Origin: Yimella lutea
GTDB taxonomy: Bacteria > Actinomycetota > Actinomycetes > Actinomycetales > Dermatophilaceae
Assembly: GCF_006715095.1 (NCBI RefSeq)
Contig: NZ_VFMO01000001.1
Span: 620,001 to 684,000, forward strand
Direction of reading: 5' to 3'
DNA: 64,000 nt
The translations under genes and the position numbers were made by a program. A model generated the notes under the pieces. It made no database searches. It worked only from the letters and a program-made list of their open reading frames with translations, and was not told where the DNA came from. Below are positions 5,363 through 40,569 of the stretch, one piece after another; position 1 is the first letter of the stretch, and each line of letters begins with the position of its first letter.

Positions 5363-5637
5363 GCGGCACGCTGGTCGAGTAGGTGCGAGCCCCTGGGCGA
5401 GTGCCGCGATCGAGACCATGGTGACGCGATACGCGGAGCCGGGTTGAATGTGGTTGCGTTCCAGCGGATCTCGCGTTGGTTTCGGCGCGTACGGATTCGT
5501 TCCTCATCCGTACGGCTCAACCAGCGGTGGTAGGTGAGTCCACACATCACGCAGTCCGGGGCGCAATCTTCGCTGGTTGAGCCGCGGGACTGACGGAGGA
5601 ATTCCCGGGGGCTGTCATCGACGGCGGGCAGGATCAT
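5296..5637 (-). CDS. Small Cys-containing ORF, coupled to paaI, repeat-invaded
   Basis: Its ATG overlaps the paaI stop (ATGA), so it could be translated with it. The 113-residue product has a short Cys cluster (CAPDCVMCG, residues about 26-34) and then becomes Arg/Ser-rich. Bases 5475-5526, encoding roughly RWLSRTDEERIRTRRNQREI, are a palindromic repeat, and the last part runs antisense over the end of the DivIVA-domain gene. Probably only the first 40 residues or so reflect an original small gene. Not recognised; possibly a broken remnant. Confidence 0.35.
   Translation of the reverse strand: MILPAVDDSPREFLRQSRGSTSEDCAPDCVMCGLTYHRWLSRTDEERIRTRRNQREIRWNATTFNPAPRIASPWSRSRHSPRGSHLLDQRAAQRRMGRRRLRSSRNLSTASAS
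5368..5419. repeat. Dispersed ~52-bp repeat, copy 1
   Basis: Runs from cgctggtcgagtaggtgcga to gccgcgatcgagaccatg. It matches, in inverse orientation, the repeat at 16804-16862, and a more diverged copy lies at 42209-42252. The ends TGGTC and GACCA are inverted. It sits just after the DivIVA-domain stop codon. Confidence 0.7.
5475..5583. repeat. GGTTGAG/CGAAACC palindromic repeat pair
   Basis: On the minus strand an element runs from CGCTGGTTGAGCCGTACGGA to CGCCGAAACCAAC (5526-5475), with inner arms CGTACGGAT/ATCCGTACG. A second CGCTGGTTGAGCCG end is at 5570-5583, inverted with respect to 5513-5526. The GGTTGAG...CGAAACC ends resemble REP-type elements common in Micrococcales. The element falls inside the small ORF downstream of paaI. 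Confidence 0.65.
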
Positions 5638-12618: not shown

Positions 12619-13848
12619 ATGTCCGACCCGACCGATGTGTCCGGAGCCCCCGGCGCGCACGCCGATGCCCGGCACACGATGCACCACGAGACCTCCGTGG
12701 CACCGAGCATGGAACACGACATCACCGACGGCGGCCCGGAAATGGTGCAGTTCGTCGACGGCGACGGCAACCGTCTGGCCACCTGCGAGGCCAACGCCCC
12801 GTACGCGCAGATCGTCGAGGACATGACCTCCGAGGACGCGCAGGCGATGTACCGCGACCTGGTGCTGGTGCGCCGGATGGACGCCGAGGGTCACGCGCTG
12901 CAGCGCCAGGGCGAACTCGGACTATGGCCCTCGCTGCTCGGCCAGGAAGCCGCGCAGGTCGGTGCCGGACGCGCCCTGAAGAAGCAGGACTACGCCTTCC
13001 CCGGCTACCGCGAGCACGGTGTCGCGTGGTGCCGTGGGGTCGACCCGGTCAACCTGCTCGGCATGTTCCGCGGCGTGAACCACGGCGGTTGGAACTCCAA
13101 CGAGAACAACTTCCACCTCTACACGATCGTCATCGGCAACCAGATGCTGCACGCCACCGGGTACGCGATGGGCATGCAGCGTGACGGCGTCGTCGGCACC
13201 GGCGACCCCGAGCGCGACGCGGCCGTGATGGCGTTCACCGGTGACGGCGGCACCGCGCAGGGTGACTACAACGAGGCGATGGTGTTCGCGAGCGTCGCCA
13301 ACGCACCGGTCGTCTTCTTCGTGCAGAACAACCAGTGGGCGATCTCCGAGCCGAACTACAAGCAATTCCGCATCCCGCCCTATCAGCGCGCACGCGGCTT
13401 CGGGTTCCCCGGCGTCCGGGTCGACGGCAACGACGTCCTCGCGGTGTACGCGGTGTCGAAGGCCGCGATGGATGCCGCCCGTGCGGGTCAGGGCCCGACG
13501 CTGATCGAGGCGTTCACCTATCGCATGGGTGCGCACACCACGTCCGACGACCCGACCAAGTACCGCATCGCGTCCGAGGTCGACATCTGGCGTGAGAAGG
13601 ACCCGATCAAGCGCATGCGCGGGTTCATGGAGACCAAGGGCCACGCCGACCCGGCGTTCTTCGAGCAGGTCGAGGCCGAGGCCGACGAACTCGCCGCTCG
13701 CATCCGACGCGAGTGCCAGCAGATGCCCGACCCGGAGCCGGTGACGATGTTCGACAAGGTCTACGCCGAACCGCACCCCGTGGTCGACGCCGAGCGCGAG
13801 GAGTTCGTCGCCTACCAAGCCTCCTTCGTCGAGGGAGGGGCGAACTGA
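12619..13848 (+). CDS. bkdA: Branched-chain 2-oxoacid dehydrogenase E1 alpha
   Basis: Thiamine-diphosphate-dependent decarboxylase alpha subunit. It decarboxylates branched-chain 2-oxoacids (from Val, Leu, Ile) and passes the acyl group to the E2 lipoyl arm. The 409-residue protein carries the ThDP motif from GDG (208-210) to NN (237-238) and the phosphorylation-loop-like YRMGAHTTSDDPTKYR segment. The ATG at 12619 is used because aaggag lies 4 nt upstream; an in-frame extension to 12538 lacks one. It is the first gene of bkdABC. The pyruvate dehydrogenase E1 alpha label often given to such proteins cannot be excluded, since specificity is not visible. Confidence 0.9.
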   Translation: MSDPTDVSGAPGAHADARHTMHHETSVAPSMEHDITDGGPEMVQFVDGDGNRLATCEANAPYAQIVEDMTSEDAQAMYRDLVLVRRMDAEGHALQRQGELGLWPSLLGQEAAQVGAGRALKKQDYAFPGYREHGVAWCRGVDPVNLLGMFRGVNHGGWNSNENNFHLYTIVIGNQMLHATGYAMGMQRDGVVGTGDPERDAAVMAFTGDGGTAQGDYNEAMVFASVANAPVVFFVQNNQWAISEPNYKQFRIPPYQRARGFGFPGVRVDGNDVLAVYAVSKAAMDAARAGQGPTLIEAFTYRMGAHTTSDDPTKYRIASEVDIWREKDPIKRMRGFMETKGHADPAFFEQVEAEADELAARIRRECQQMPDPEPVTMFDKVYAEPHPVVDAEREEFVAYQASFVEGGAN

Positions 13849-13849
13849 C

Positions 13850-14839
13850 ATGGCAACGCAGAAGATGACGCTCGCCAAGGGCATCAACGCCGGTCTGCGC
13901 AAGGCGATGGAGGACGACCCCAAGGTCGTCCTGATGGGTGAGGACGTCGGCAAGCTCGGCGGCGTCTTCCGGATCACCGAGGGTCTGCAGAAGGACTTCG
14001 GTGAGGACCGCGTGATCGACACCCCGCTCGCGGAGTCCGGCATCGTCGGCACCGCGATCGGCCTGGCCATGCGCGGCTACCGCCCGGTGGTGGAGATCCA
14101 GTTCGACGGGTTCATCTACCCGGCGTTCGACCAGATCATCAGCCAGGTCTCCAAGATGCACTACCGGTCGCTGGGCTACCTGAAGCTGCCGATGGTCATC
14201 CGGGTTCCGTTCGGCGGCGGCATCGGAGCTGTCGAGCATCACTCGGAGTCCAACGAGGCCTATTTCGCTCACACCGCGGGTCTGCGCGTGGTCAGCTGCT
14301 CCGACCCAGCGGACGCCTACTGGATGATCCAGCAGGCGATCCAGACCGACGACCCGGTGCTGTTCTACGAACCCAAGCGCCGCTACCACGAGCGTGCAGA
14401 GGTCGACCTGGACGAGTCCACCGGTGCACCGCTCGGGCTGTACGACGCGCGAGTGGCGCGGGAGGGTAGCGACCTGACTCTCATCGCGTACGGACCGATG
14501 GTAAAGACCTGCCGCCAGGCCGCGGAAGCCGCTGCGGCAGAAGGACGTTCGATCGAGGTGATCGATCTTCGGTCGCTCTCGCCGCTCGACCGCGCGACGA
14601 TCTTCACCTCGGCGAAGAAGACCGGACGCGTCGTCGTGGTGCACGAGGCGAGCACCTTCCTCGGACTCGGCTCGGAACTCGCCGCGCTGATCCAGCAGGA
14701 GTGCTTCTACCACTTGGAGGCACCTGTGCTCCGGGTCGGTGGATACAACCTGCCGTACCCGCCCAGCCGCTTCGAGGAGCACTTCCTGCCCGACCTCGAC
14801 CGCATCCTCGATGCCGTCGACCGCTCGCTGGCGTACTGA
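13850..14839 (+). CDS. bkdB: Branched-chain 2-oxoacid dehydrogenase E1 beta
   Basis: Beta subunit that completes the ThDP site of E1. A 329-residue transketolase-like protein with GEDVGKLGGVFRITEGLQ, DTPLAESGIVGTAIGLAMRG (Glu for the ThDP N1') and the C-terminal transketolase domain ending RVGGYNLPYPPSRFEEHFLP. It begins 1 nt after the bkdA stop, so the two are translated together, and it is followed 13 nt later by bkdC. Confidence 0.93.
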   Translation: MATQKMTLAKGINAGLRKAMEDDPKVVLMGEDVGKLGGVFRITEGLQKDFGEDRVIDTPLAESGIVGTAIGLAMRGYRPVVEIQFDGFIYPAFDQIISQVSKMHYRSLGYLKLPMVIRVPFGGGIGAVEHHSESNEAYFAHTAGLRVVSCSDPADAYWMIQQAIQTDDPVLFYEPKRRYHERAEVDLDESTGAPLGLYDARVAREGSDLTLIAYGPMVKTCRQAAEAAAAEGRSIEVIDLRSLSPLDRATIFTSAKKTGRVVVVHEASTFLGLGSELAALIQQECFYHLEAPVLRVGGYNLPYPPSRFEEHFLPDLDRILDAVDRSLAY

Positions 14840-14852
14840 GGGGATCACTGAC

Positions 14853-16292
14853 ATGGGTGTGAAGCTGTTCAACCTGCCCGACCCTGGTGAAGGACTCGTC
14901 GAGGCGGACGTCGTCACCTGGAAGATCAAGCCGGGCGACACCGTCAAGGTCAATGACGTCGTCGTCGAGATCGAGACCGCAAAATCGTTGGTGGAGTTGC
15001 CGATTCCGTGGGCCGGCACCGTCGTCGAGCTGCTCGTCGAGGAGGGTGCGACGGTCGATGTCGGCAGCCCGATCGTGTCGATCGAGGTGGAGGGCGCAGA
15101 GTCCGAGACCCCGTCGTCCACCCCGGCGGCCGACACCGCCGTCCAGGGCGCTGCGCCCGACTCGCAGGCCGCGAAGGAGGACGAGGAGGAGCGCGTGGCC
15201 AACCTCGTCGGTTACGGCGCGGTCGCCGGTTCGACCCAGCGGCGTGCCCGCCGCACAGCGCCCCCGGCGACACCCTCCCGAAAGTCCGCAGAACTCGCGG
15301 GTCAAGTCACCGGATCTGCGGACACTCCCCAGCCGAAGTCCGCAGAACTCGCGGGCCAGGTCGCCGGATCTGCGGACAAGCGCGGGAAGGTGCTGGCCAA
15401 GCCGCCGGTGCGCAAGTTCGCCAAGGACAACGGGGTCGACCTGTCCGCGATCACCCCGTCCCGTCCGGACGGCGTCATCACCCGCGCCGAGGTGGAAGCA
15501 CACCTCACCTCGCTGGTTGAGACTGGACGCAGCGACGTAGGAGCGGCGACCAGTGCCGAAACCCGAGGCGGCGCTGAGCGGGAGACCCGTACGCCGATCA
15601 AGGGCGTCCGCAAGATGACCGCCCAAGCGATGGCCGGGTCGGCGTTCACCGCCCCGCACGTCACCGAGTTCATCACCGTCGACATGACCCGGACGATGGA
15701 ACTCGTCGACCGCCTCAAAGCCGACCGTGAGTTCAAGGGCGTCAAGGTCACCCCGTTGCTCGTGCTCGCCAAGGCGCTGTGCGTAGCCGTGAAGCGCAAC
15801 CCGGAGATCAACGCGAGCTGGGACGAAACGGCCCAGGAGATCGTGGTCAAGCACTACGTCAACCTGGGGATCGCGGCGTCCACGCCGCGTGGCTTGATCG
15901 TGCCGAACATCAAGGACGCCGACCGCATGAACCTGCGCGAGCTCGCCGAAGCGATGGGCTCACTGGTCGAGACCGCCCGCGAGGGCAAGACACCGCCGGC
16001 CGACATGTCCGGTGGCTCGATCACGATCACCAACGTCGGTGTCTTCGGCGTCGACAACGGCACCCCGATCATCAATCCGGGTGAGGCCGCGATCCTGTGC
16101 TTCGGCGCGGTGCGCAAGATGCCGTGGGTGGTCACCGACGCGTCCGGCAAGGACACGATCGTGCCGCGTCAGGTTACCCAGTTGTCGTTGGCCTTCGACC
16201 ACCGCCTGGTCGACGGCGACCTCGGCTCGCGCTTCCTGGCGGATGTCGCGGCTCTGCTGGAGGACCCGGGCAAGGCACTTGTCTGGGGCTGA
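14853..16292 (+). CDS. bkdC: 2-oxoacid dehydrogenase E2 (dihydrolipoamide acyltransferase)
   Basis: Core of the complex: it carries acyl groups on a lipoyl arm and transfers them to CoA. The 479 residues divide into a lipoyl domain (1-80, Lys44 in EIETAKSLVE), linker 1 (81-180), the E3-binding domain (about 181-218, VRKFAKDNGVDLSAI), linker 2 (219-247) and the catalytic domain with DHRLVDG (His450, Asp454). Residues 143-157 and 161-175 are near-identical repeats (KSAELAGQVTGSAD and KSAELAGQVAGSAD) encoded by two copies of a palindromic DNA repeat also found between genes; linker 2 derives from another repeat family. No E3 gene is nearby, so it must use a shared dihydrolipoamide dehydrogenase. 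Confidence 0.93.
   Translation: MGVKLFNLPDPGEGLVEADVVTWKIKPGDTVKVNDVVVEIETAKSLVELPIPWAGTVVELLVEEGATVDVGSPIVSIEVEGAESETPSSTPAADTAVQGAAPDSQAAKEDEEERVANLVGYGAVAGSTQRRARRTAPPATPSRKSAELAGQVTGSADTPQPKSAELAGQVAGSADKRGKVLAKPPVRKFAKDNGVDLSAITPSRPDGVITRAEVEAHLTSLVETGRSDVGAATSAETRGGAERETRTPIKGVRKMTAQAMAGSAFTAPHVTEFITVDMTRTMELVDRLKADREFKGVKVTPLLVLAKALCVAVKRNPEINASWDETAQEIVVKHYVNLGIAASTPRGLIVPNIKDADRMNLRELAEAMGSLVETAREGKTPPADMSGGSITITNVGVFGVDNGTPIINPGEAAILCFGAVRKMPWVVTDASGKDTIVPRQVTQLSLAFDHRLVDGDLGSRFLADVAALLEDPGKALVWG
15281..15377 (+). repeat. Two tandem palindromic repeats inside bkdC
   Basis: Two 43-bp copies, 15281-15323 and 15335-15377, differ at about four positions. Each starts aagtccgcagaactcgcggg and ends ccggatctgcggac, the two ends being partly inverted copies. 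The same arms form the hairpin at 39675-39722. Both copies stay in frame with bkdC. Confidence 0.85.
15511..15565 (+). repeat. GGTTGAG/CGAAACC repeat relic inside bkdC
   Basis: Begins cgctggttgagactggacgc and ends gaccagtgccgaaacccg, with the same ends as the repeat at 5475-5526 but a diverged middle. It encodes linker 2 of the E2 protein, around residues 220-237. Confidence 0.55.
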
Positions 16293-16803: not shown

Positions 16804-16862
16804 ACGTGGTCTCGATTGCGGCACTCACTCGCCCAGCGGCTCGCACCTACTCGACCAGCGTG
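16804..16862. repeat. Dispersed ~52-bp repeat, copy 2
   Basis: Runs from cgtggtctcgattgcggcac to cacctactcgaccagcgtg and is the reverse complement of the copy at 5368-5419, with a few substitutions and a short insertion. The rest of the gap to the MerR gene (16863-17034) holds no supported gene. Confidence 0.7.
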
Positions 16863-39227: not shown

Positions 39228-39671
39228 ATGAGTGACGTCCTGCTGGTGCTCAACGGGCCCAACCTCAACCTGCTCGGGCAGCGCGACCCGCAGCAGTACG
39301 GCACCACGACCCTCGCCGACATCGAGGCGTCCGTCCGTGAGCGTGCCGGTGAACACGGCCTGGACGTCGACTTCCGGCAGAGTAACCACGAGGGCGAACT
39401 CGTCGACTGGATCCAGCAGTCGCGGACGTCGGCGGCGGGCATCGTCATCAACCCTGCCGCGTACACGCACACCTCGGTCGCGATCAGGGACGCCTTGGAG
39501 ATCGTCACCTGCCCGGTGGTCGAGGTGCACATGTCGAACATCCACCAGCGAGAGCCCTTCCGGCACCACTCCTACGTATCGGCGGTGGCGGACGGTGTCA
39601 TCGCCGGACTCGGCGCGCACGGCTACGTCCTGGCCGTGGACGCCGTGGCAACCCTGCGCGCCCACCCCTGA
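39228..39671 (+). CDS. aroQ: Type II 3-dehydroquinate dehydratase
   Basis: Third step of the shikimate pathway. The 147-residue flavodoxin-like enzyme shows [20 protein letters not shown] (active-site Asn, Arg and Tyr), [30 protein letters not shown] and [17 protein letters not shown] with the catalytic His. Full length for type II enzymes, which form dodecamers. It stands apart from other aro genes. Confidence 0.96.
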
Positions 39672-39674
39672 CCC

Positions 39675-39722
39675 GAAAGTCCGCAGAACGCACGGGTCGA
39701 CCCGTCGGTTCTGCGGACTTTC
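39675..39722. terminator. Hairpin shared with the bkdC repeats
   Basis: aaagtccgcagaac (39676-39689) pairs with gttctgcggacttt (39708-39721), with an inner cgggtcgacccg dyad. It separates convergent aroQ and pxpC and can end both. The arms are the same as those of the two repeats inside bkdC. Confidence 0.8.
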
Positions 39723-40569
39723 AGAGGGTGAAGCGGACGGTGTCGCCGGGGCGCAGTTGAGCGAGCCGGTCGGTGTCGGCGTCCGTCACGACCGCGATGA
39801 CCGGGTAGCCGCCGGTGGTCGGGTGGTCGGCGAGAAAGACGACGGGCTGACCGTTCGCAGGCACCTGGATCGCGCCACGCACCATGCCCTCGCTGGCGAG
39901 TTCACCGGAGCGGCTGCGCTCGAGCGGCGGTCCGTCCAGGCGGACGCCCACCCGATCGAGATCGCTGCTGGTCGTCCATTTCTGCTGCAGCAGAATGCGC
40001 ACTGCGTCGTCGGTGAACCAGTCGTCCCGTGGACCGAGCAGGACGCGGACGGTCACCGGATTCGTCCAGGCGTACTGACCCGGGAAGGGTTGCGGCACAA
40101 CCGAGTCGGGCGCATCTGCGACCGGCAATCGGCGGCCGGATCGGAGTGGTTCCGGTCCGATGTTCGCAGTCGGTGAGGTGCTGCGACTGCCGAGTGTTCG
40201 GGGTTCGTCGATGCCGCCTCGGACGCCGACATAGGTGCGTAACCCCGCGACCGGAGTACCGATTCGCAGGCGATCGCCCTCCTGCAGCAGGAAGGCTTCG
40301 CCGAACGGCATCGCGCGGTCGTCAGAGCTGACGCAAGCGGGTGCACCGGTGACGGCGACGACGACCGGCTCCTCGGCGAGCAGGACGGCGTTGCCCATCA
40401 GGAGTTCGAGTCCACAGGCTCCGTCCGGATTGCCGACCAGCCGGTTGGCCAGAGTGAGTGCTCCTCGGTCTGCGGCGCCGCCGGTCGGTACGCCGACGTC
40501 GGCGTATCCGGGACGACCGAGGTCCTGGACGGTGGCCTGCGGACCGACGGACTCGACGATCAACGTCAC
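39721..40569 (-). CDS. pxpC: 5-oxoprolinase subunit C (KipA-type)
   Basis: Biotin-dependent-carboxyltransferase-like subunit of the PxpABC 5-oxoprolinase, which opens pyroglutamate to glutamate with ATP. The 282-residue protein starts [20 protein letters not shown], the family's ESxGPxxTVQDxGR motif, followed by DRGALTLANRLVGN and the C-terminal HPTTGGYPVIAVVT. GTG 40569 overlaps the pxpB stop (GTGA). Last gene of the operon. Confidence 0.92.
   Translation of the reverse strand: MTLIVESVGPQATVQDLGRPGYADVGVPTGGAADRGALTLANRLVGNPDGACGLELLMGNAVLLAEEPVVVAVTGAPACVSSDDRAMPFGEAFLLQEGDRLRIGTPVAGLRTYVGVRGGIDEPRTLGSRSTSPTANIGPEPLRSGRRLPVADAPDSVVPQPFPGQYAWTNPVTVRVLLGPRDDWFTDDAVRILLQQKWTTSSDLDRVGVRLDGPPLERSRSGELASEGMVRGAIQVPANGQPVVFLADHPTTGGYPVIAVVTDADTDRLAQLRPGDTVRFTL

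Follow-up and report, generated by a model that had tools for sequence, protein, structure and literature searches.

Hairpin repeats appear to form much of both interdomain linkers of the E2 protein BkdC in Yimella lutea

Results

Judging from its DNA, hairpin repeats of two distinct types account for a large part of both linkers of the E2 acyltransferase BkdC of Yimella lutea. A dimer of family A, a 50-bp self-complementary hairpin that is found in the genome as single units or head-to-tail dimers, accounts for most of linker 1, and a palindrome of a second family, B, for much of linker 2. The whole stretch of DNA analysed, here called the window, is 64,000 nucleotides long (contig NZ_VFMO01000001.1, positions 620,001 to 684,000), and coordinates refer to it unless marked otherwise; its genome is denoted G000, two congeners G001 and G002, and representatives of two other genera G019 and G020. 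The features of the window are shown in Table 1.

Table 1. Repeat elements and the bkdC gene in the window.
Feature	Position	Strand	Evidence
bkdC, E2 acyltransferase, 479 aa, intact	14853-16292	+	Pfam 2-oxoacid_dh, Biotin_lipoyl, E3_binding, all above cut-off
Family A hairpin unit 1, bkdC dimer, linker 1	15280-15329	+	R1 73.3 bits, E 3.4e-21; 20/20 consensus arm bases
Family A hairpin unit 2, bkdC dimer, linker 1	15334-15383	+	R1 64.3 bits, E 4.2e-18; 20/20 consensus arm bases
Family B palindrome GGTTGAG...CGAAACC, residues 221-237, much of BkdC linker 2	15515-15563 (genome 635515-635563)	+	pattern match
Repeat of GGTCGAGTAG...CGATCGAGACC type	5373-5417 (genome 625373-625417)	+	pattern match
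Family B repeat, GGTTGAGCC type	5478-5522 (genome 625478-625522)	-	pattern match
Family A hairpin, intergenic	39675-39724	+	R1 68.6 bits (one of the copies behind R1); fold -42.7 kcal/mol, z -6.87

BkdC and its linkers

We take the product of this gene to be of the branched-chain type, and the ORFs upstream of it (12619-13848 and 13850-14839) presumably encode E1 alpha and E1 beta, which they resemble; at its end bkdC overlaps with the ORF that follows. With records very near the window left out, the closest named BkdC matches are from Flexivirga and Leekyejoonella. In the BkdC comparison an E2 match was found in 56 of 58 genomes, paralogues counted, with G002 (85%) and G001 (78%) at the top. 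An AlphaFold2 model built with 13 sequences (mean pLDDT 65.2, pTM 0.42) has pLDDT below 50 at residues 83-177 and 224-267, and both repeat-carrying linkers are thus predicted to be disordered.

The two tandem 43-bp copies in linker 1 reported in the preliminary description, at 15281-15323 and 15335-15377, are confirmed by direct reading; they lie 54 bp apart, are alike at 39 of 43 bases, and encode KSAELAGQVTGSAD (residues 144-157) and KSAELAGQVAGSAD (residues 162-175). Their arm, AAGTCCGCAGAAC, has four exact occurrences in the window: each bkdC copy contains one, and the other two are the arms of the intergenic hairpin at 39675-39724, as had been proposed. One more place matches it with two mismatches. 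The spacer between the two units, ACACTCCCCA, recurs in an intergenic dimer of the same layout (genome 83978-84080).

The linker does not exceed that of relatives in length, contrary to the suggestion that an in-frame insertion had added residues: the stretch from LVGYG to KPPVR has 70 residues in the window genome, 61-86 in nine relatives, and 63 and 72 in the two congeners. Linker sequence was therefore replaced rather than added, or was trimmed later. Absence of the block from relatives, which had been predicted, is borne out by G001, where bkdC has an Ala/Pro linker without it; in G002 there is no more than a decayed trace. There, 22 of 28 bases align with unit 2 (codon shuffling gave as good an alignment in 81 of 20000 cases), and the stretch ranks top among 37 linkers with a score of 16, the linker of another genus being next at 15. 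At this moderate significance it is likely, from its sequence, a decayed trace of family A; it folds no better than chance (z 0.02). A family A hairpin (G001:C1:807926-807975) begins 7 bp past the bkdC stop codon in G001.

Family A in the genome and in relatives

Searched with an exact half-site pattern, the whole genome yielded 11 matches, one of which (1445151) does not have the look of an element; the reversed control yielded none. A covariance model, R1, was built from nine copies at eight sites, both bkdC units among them, and finds 26 sites in its own genome at E<=0.001, seven of them dimeric with a period of 52-55 bp. As eight of these sites supplied the model, 18 are new. The expectation that the unit would be found many times between genes is thus upheld, with 23 of the 26 sites lying outside genes. 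One match within a gene (225418; 20.8 bits, E 0.005) was taken as chance and left uncounted.

Across 58 genomes, searched with stricter filters at which weak matches are lost, R1 matched at E<=0.001 in five, own genome included: all three of the genus and two of the 55 others, with a single weak match in each of these two. A wider model made from 40 units, which match it by construction, yielded additional sites, chiefly in G001. In the stems of 40 copies, 33 cells are changed on both sides; shuffles give 14.1, none of 500 being as high as the real stems. Pairing falls from 81.7% to 29-43% when the partner columns are slid. GTTTGC/GCAAAC is present in all 31 units (28 sites) of G001 and GTCCGC/GCGGAC in none, whereas in G000 the latter is in 31 of the 36 listed units and the former in none (bkdC and 39675 left out); 7 of 10 units in G002 have GTCCGC/GCGGAC. 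By comparison of these copies, the stems are species-specific and appear to have changed in concert between species, and together with the compensatory changes this argues for a maintained hairpin. One family A site (genome 2923611) is also present in G002, and both arms of its stem show partial changes.

Membership of a known RNA family was rejected, the sole match of an Rfam search with three loci being at E 0.53, far below the Rfam cut-off. A phage or plasmid origin was likewise set aside, since a search with one 50-base copy brought up no more than partial matches (E 0.3-1) to two phage and two plasmid records.

Copies behind genes

Gene context was obtained with our own codon-usage gene caller. 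The intergenic hairpin of the window has a convergent pair of called genes around it, 39228-39671 (+) and 39721-40569 (-). In the whole window genome, leaving out bkdC and this hairpin and taking in weak matches down to E 0.5, 30 match groups comprise 18 in convergent gaps, 7 codirectional, 1 divergent, 1 undecided and 3 inside genes. With the window hairpin added, 19 of 27 are convergent (weak matches included); as background, the window has 58 gaps between genes, of which 10 are convergent (binomial p 1.7e-9). The 23 strong sites outside genes are 19 convergent, 3 codirectional and 1 divergent, and 22 of them lie at most 9 bp from, or overlap, a gene 3' end; these strong-site counts omit the weak matches at 296122, 740398, 1519958 and 3274982 (all codirectional), 1710376 (undecided) and 225418. 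The 28 sites of G001 are 15 convergent, 9 codirectional, 3 divergent and 1 undecided, and the 10 of G002 are 4 convergent and 6 codirectional; none of these 38 sites was called inside a gene. Two genes (L107:1959-3020 and L108:3081-3824) end within a family A element, which gives them their last codons and stop.

Three intergenic copies fold with z of -6.9 to -10.6, and the single intergenic dimer that was folded forms one long hairpin (-80.7 kcal/mol). The features of a terminator are present, namely a stable G+C-rich stem with an A-tract before it and a T-tract after it, a position behind stop codons, and convergent genes. The T-tract is a short one, with TTT in 5 bases, and 5 of 22 intergenic sites lack it. 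An outer TTT is found at 17 of 22 intergenic sites and at none of three genic ones (p 0.024), or per unit in 17 of 28 and 0 of 4 (p 0.038). Intergenic family A elements are probably bidirectional intrinsic transcription terminators, a reading that was not part of the preliminary description.

Copies within genes

Family A lies inside three genes, all with open reading frames and all in one common frame: the bkdC dimer, and one copy each in the genes at loci L111 and L122. The comparison is a small one of three sites, one of them degraded. It does support the suggestion that a dispersed intergenic repeat was recruited as coding sequence in flexible linkers, given the low pLDDT of the BkdC linkers and the two further in-frame copies. 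RNA of the bkdC dimer folds at -48.5 kcal/mol (z -2.29; 4 of 200 shuffles equally good).

The L111 product is periplasmic-binding-like (its Pfam score, 26.6 bits, falls short of the 27.5 cut-off), and orthologues matched in 15 of 33 genomes searched, own included. The loop carrying the copy is longest in G000 and G002, nine residues shorter in G001 and shorter by 2-8 in the other 12, the gain over G001 being less than a 50-bp element. The copy has 19 of 20 consensus arm bases. The loops of G002 and G000 are identical at 33 of 51 bases (0 of 200000 codon shuffles), with 8 of 15 stem pairs kept in G002 compared with 14 of 15 in G000, and this likeness implies that the copy predates their split. 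The L122 gene, encoding a HAD hydrolase, has a 53-residue stretch where both congeners have 42, again a gain of less than the element; its copy is degraded (R1 29.4 bits, 8 of 15 stem pairs) and folds no better than chance (z -0.76). Element-less relatives are thus shorter in these two genes, and not so in bkdC.

Synonymous divergence from G002, linkers included, is 0.57 (dS) for bkdC and 1.05 for the L111 gene. With 19-20 of 20 arm bases retained despite this, copies older than the split should have decayed unless they were homogenised. Should the copies in bkdC and L111 be older than the split, gene conversion or a similar process may keep them young; alternatively, the bkdC copy may be recent and the trace in G002 due to chance. 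The L111 copy favours homogenisation of pre-split copies over recent arrival.

Family B and linker repeats in other genera

The third element that had been described, with GGTTGAG and CGAAACC ends, is indeed in linker 2, and by its sequence it belongs to a different repeat family, apparently unrelated to family A. It is identical at 43 of 49 bases to a copy at genome 327682-327730; identity counts were used here, the palindrome being offset and a symmetry score unusable. The family B pattern has 62 forward and 65 reverse matches in the genome, plain chance coding matches included, where the control has 2 and 0, and among the matches listed at least about 39 places, bkdC included, show by eye GGTTGAG...CGAAACC with an inner stem. 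At the same place in bkdC linker 2, G002 has a 49-bp match with 39 of 49 bases identical, and G001 a shorter one.

Five of 35 distinct linker regions hold the family B pattern, those of the three members of the window genus, G019 and G020, and the other 30 are without it; 1000 codon-shuffled linker sets gave 0.071 on average and 2 at most. In whole genomes the pattern is common in all 58 relatives. Linker 1 of G020 has a repeat of its own, whose pattern has 27 genome matches (control 0), 12 of them, the linker included, holding GGTCGAGCTTGTCGAGACC by eye. The pattern of the linker 1 repeat in G019 has three genome matches, the linker and two others. The three congeners not being independent, these amount to about four events with family A counted.

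Other repeats were seen in passing. One of GGTCGAGTAG type (16808-16856, reverse strand) lies about 40 bp past the ORF that follows bkdC, and among the matches listed, five near-identical GGTCGAGTAGGTGCGG-type repeats fall within 340 bp at genome 1019106-1019445, mostly 59 bp apart.

Discussion

The sequences, copy numbers, positions, covariation, common frame and relatives described above make likely, in our judgement, an account that also supposes termination, spread, a tolerance filter and translation. Family A would normally stand immediately downstream of stop codons, in most cases where two genes converge, and there its A-tract, stem and T-tract most likely act as a bidirectional intrinsic terminator. 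Copies would have spread within the genome, and occasionally one would have replaced DNA inside a gene. Where the protein tolerates such copies they would persist, lacking the terminal TTT and read in the one frame whose product is a peptide of small residues, R/P-x-[SA]-A-x-x-A-[GD]-[QE]-V-x-x-[SP]-A-D. Most of linker 1 of BkdC would have come from a family A dimer in this way, and much of linker 2 from the unrelated family B palindrome. More speculatively, and here we are inclined to doubt rather more than to believe, E2 linkers of this bacterial family may be places where hairpin repeats land repeatedly (A and B in the window genus, separate linker 1 repeats in two further genera), with terminator hairpins devoid of their T-tract as a standing source of linker peptide, and gene conversion with intergenic copies keeping the genic copies young.

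A different origin, which we think unlikely, is that family A is a REP- or BIME-type element once moved by a trans-acting transposase, its place behind genes reflecting harmless insertion and termination not being its job. RAYT transposases (Y1_Tnp, PF01797) are often associated with GTAG- and CGTC-tagged REPs. PF01797 was unmatched in all three genomes of the genus, the control being positive in 5 of 14, and a REP with RAYT was rejected on this ground; neither tag stands at the element ends in the copies inspected. The compensatory changes and species-specific stems also favour a maintained hairpin, although concerted spread of a mobile family could give such stems too, and the REPs in the available part of one published survey are likewise dimeric, close to the 3' ends of convergent genes and present inside ORFs (PMC3733652). 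Of the mobile repeat first suggested, the dispersed copies thus stand, with neither a REP-type transposase nor a clean empty site found, and a putative mobility is read from the dispersal.

It is more improbable still that hairpins inside genes are retained because they regulate the mRNA, for instance by pausing, cleavage or attenuation. The bkdC dimer does fold better than its shuffles, as does the L111 copy (z -3.10), and the bkdC arms are unusually well kept for the dS of that gene; but the terminal TTT is absent, the bkdC dimer is far weaker than the intergenic dimer, neither the matching stretch of G002 nor the HAD copy folds better than chance, and G001 has no element in its bkdC linker. 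We give practically no credence to the idea that 54 bp were simply duplicated locally in a linker under little constraint, with a chance likeness to intergenic hairpins. E2 linkers do vary in length and are often repetitive, but the arms are found at 25 other sites, there are six other dimers, and the dimer layout recurs between genes together with its spacer, on which grounds local duplication alone was discarded. The conversion of dispersed terminator-like hairpins into linker sequence remains the reading that we prefer.

If so, these are non-coding hairpins caught in the act of becoming protein, and the relatives show which copies are common and which are not. They also raise a question: hairpins behind genes share one sequence per species, and change together between species. 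As one enzyme here has a different, unrelated repeat family in each of its linkers, E2 linkers could serve to seek such conversions across genomes. Among the papers listed by a literature search covering few subscription papers were studies of intragenic REPs, Rickettsia palindromic elements and similar repeats, and none on family A or on repeats in E2 linkers.

Intragenic palindromes as such are already known in the REPs and in the Rickettsia palindromic elements, and the available text of two further reports treats intragenic repeats of enterobacteria (PMC2759123) and coding palindromes of mitochondria (PMC6649704); what is new here, by the evidence of its sequence, is a family without the tags or transposase of REPs. 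As far as the available part of Di Nocera et al. (2013, PMC3733652) goes, GTAG- and CGTC-tagged REPs are short dispersed palindromes, single or dimeric, mostly within 20 bp of the 3' ends of convergent genes and sometimes wholly in ORFs, with dimers or groups that encode 20-30 residues making up over half of the genic inserts. Family A has in common with them its short dispersed palindromes, single units and dimers, position at the 3' ends of convergent genes and intragenic copies. It differs in its ends, which by eye, in copies taken with 35-base flanks, are of GAAAG and CTTTCGG type, in its A-tract and T-tract flanks, and in the presence of two unrelated palindromes in the two linkers of one enzyme. 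The Rickettsia elements (Ogata et al. 2000, 2002), according to the available part of PMC10969869, are about 150 bp long, lie in frame in unrelated genes with a conserved peptide, and are genic in nearly half of cases. Family A resembles them in its in-frame palindromic copies and conserved peptide in unrelated genes, albeit with 50-bp units and only 3 of 26 sites within genes.
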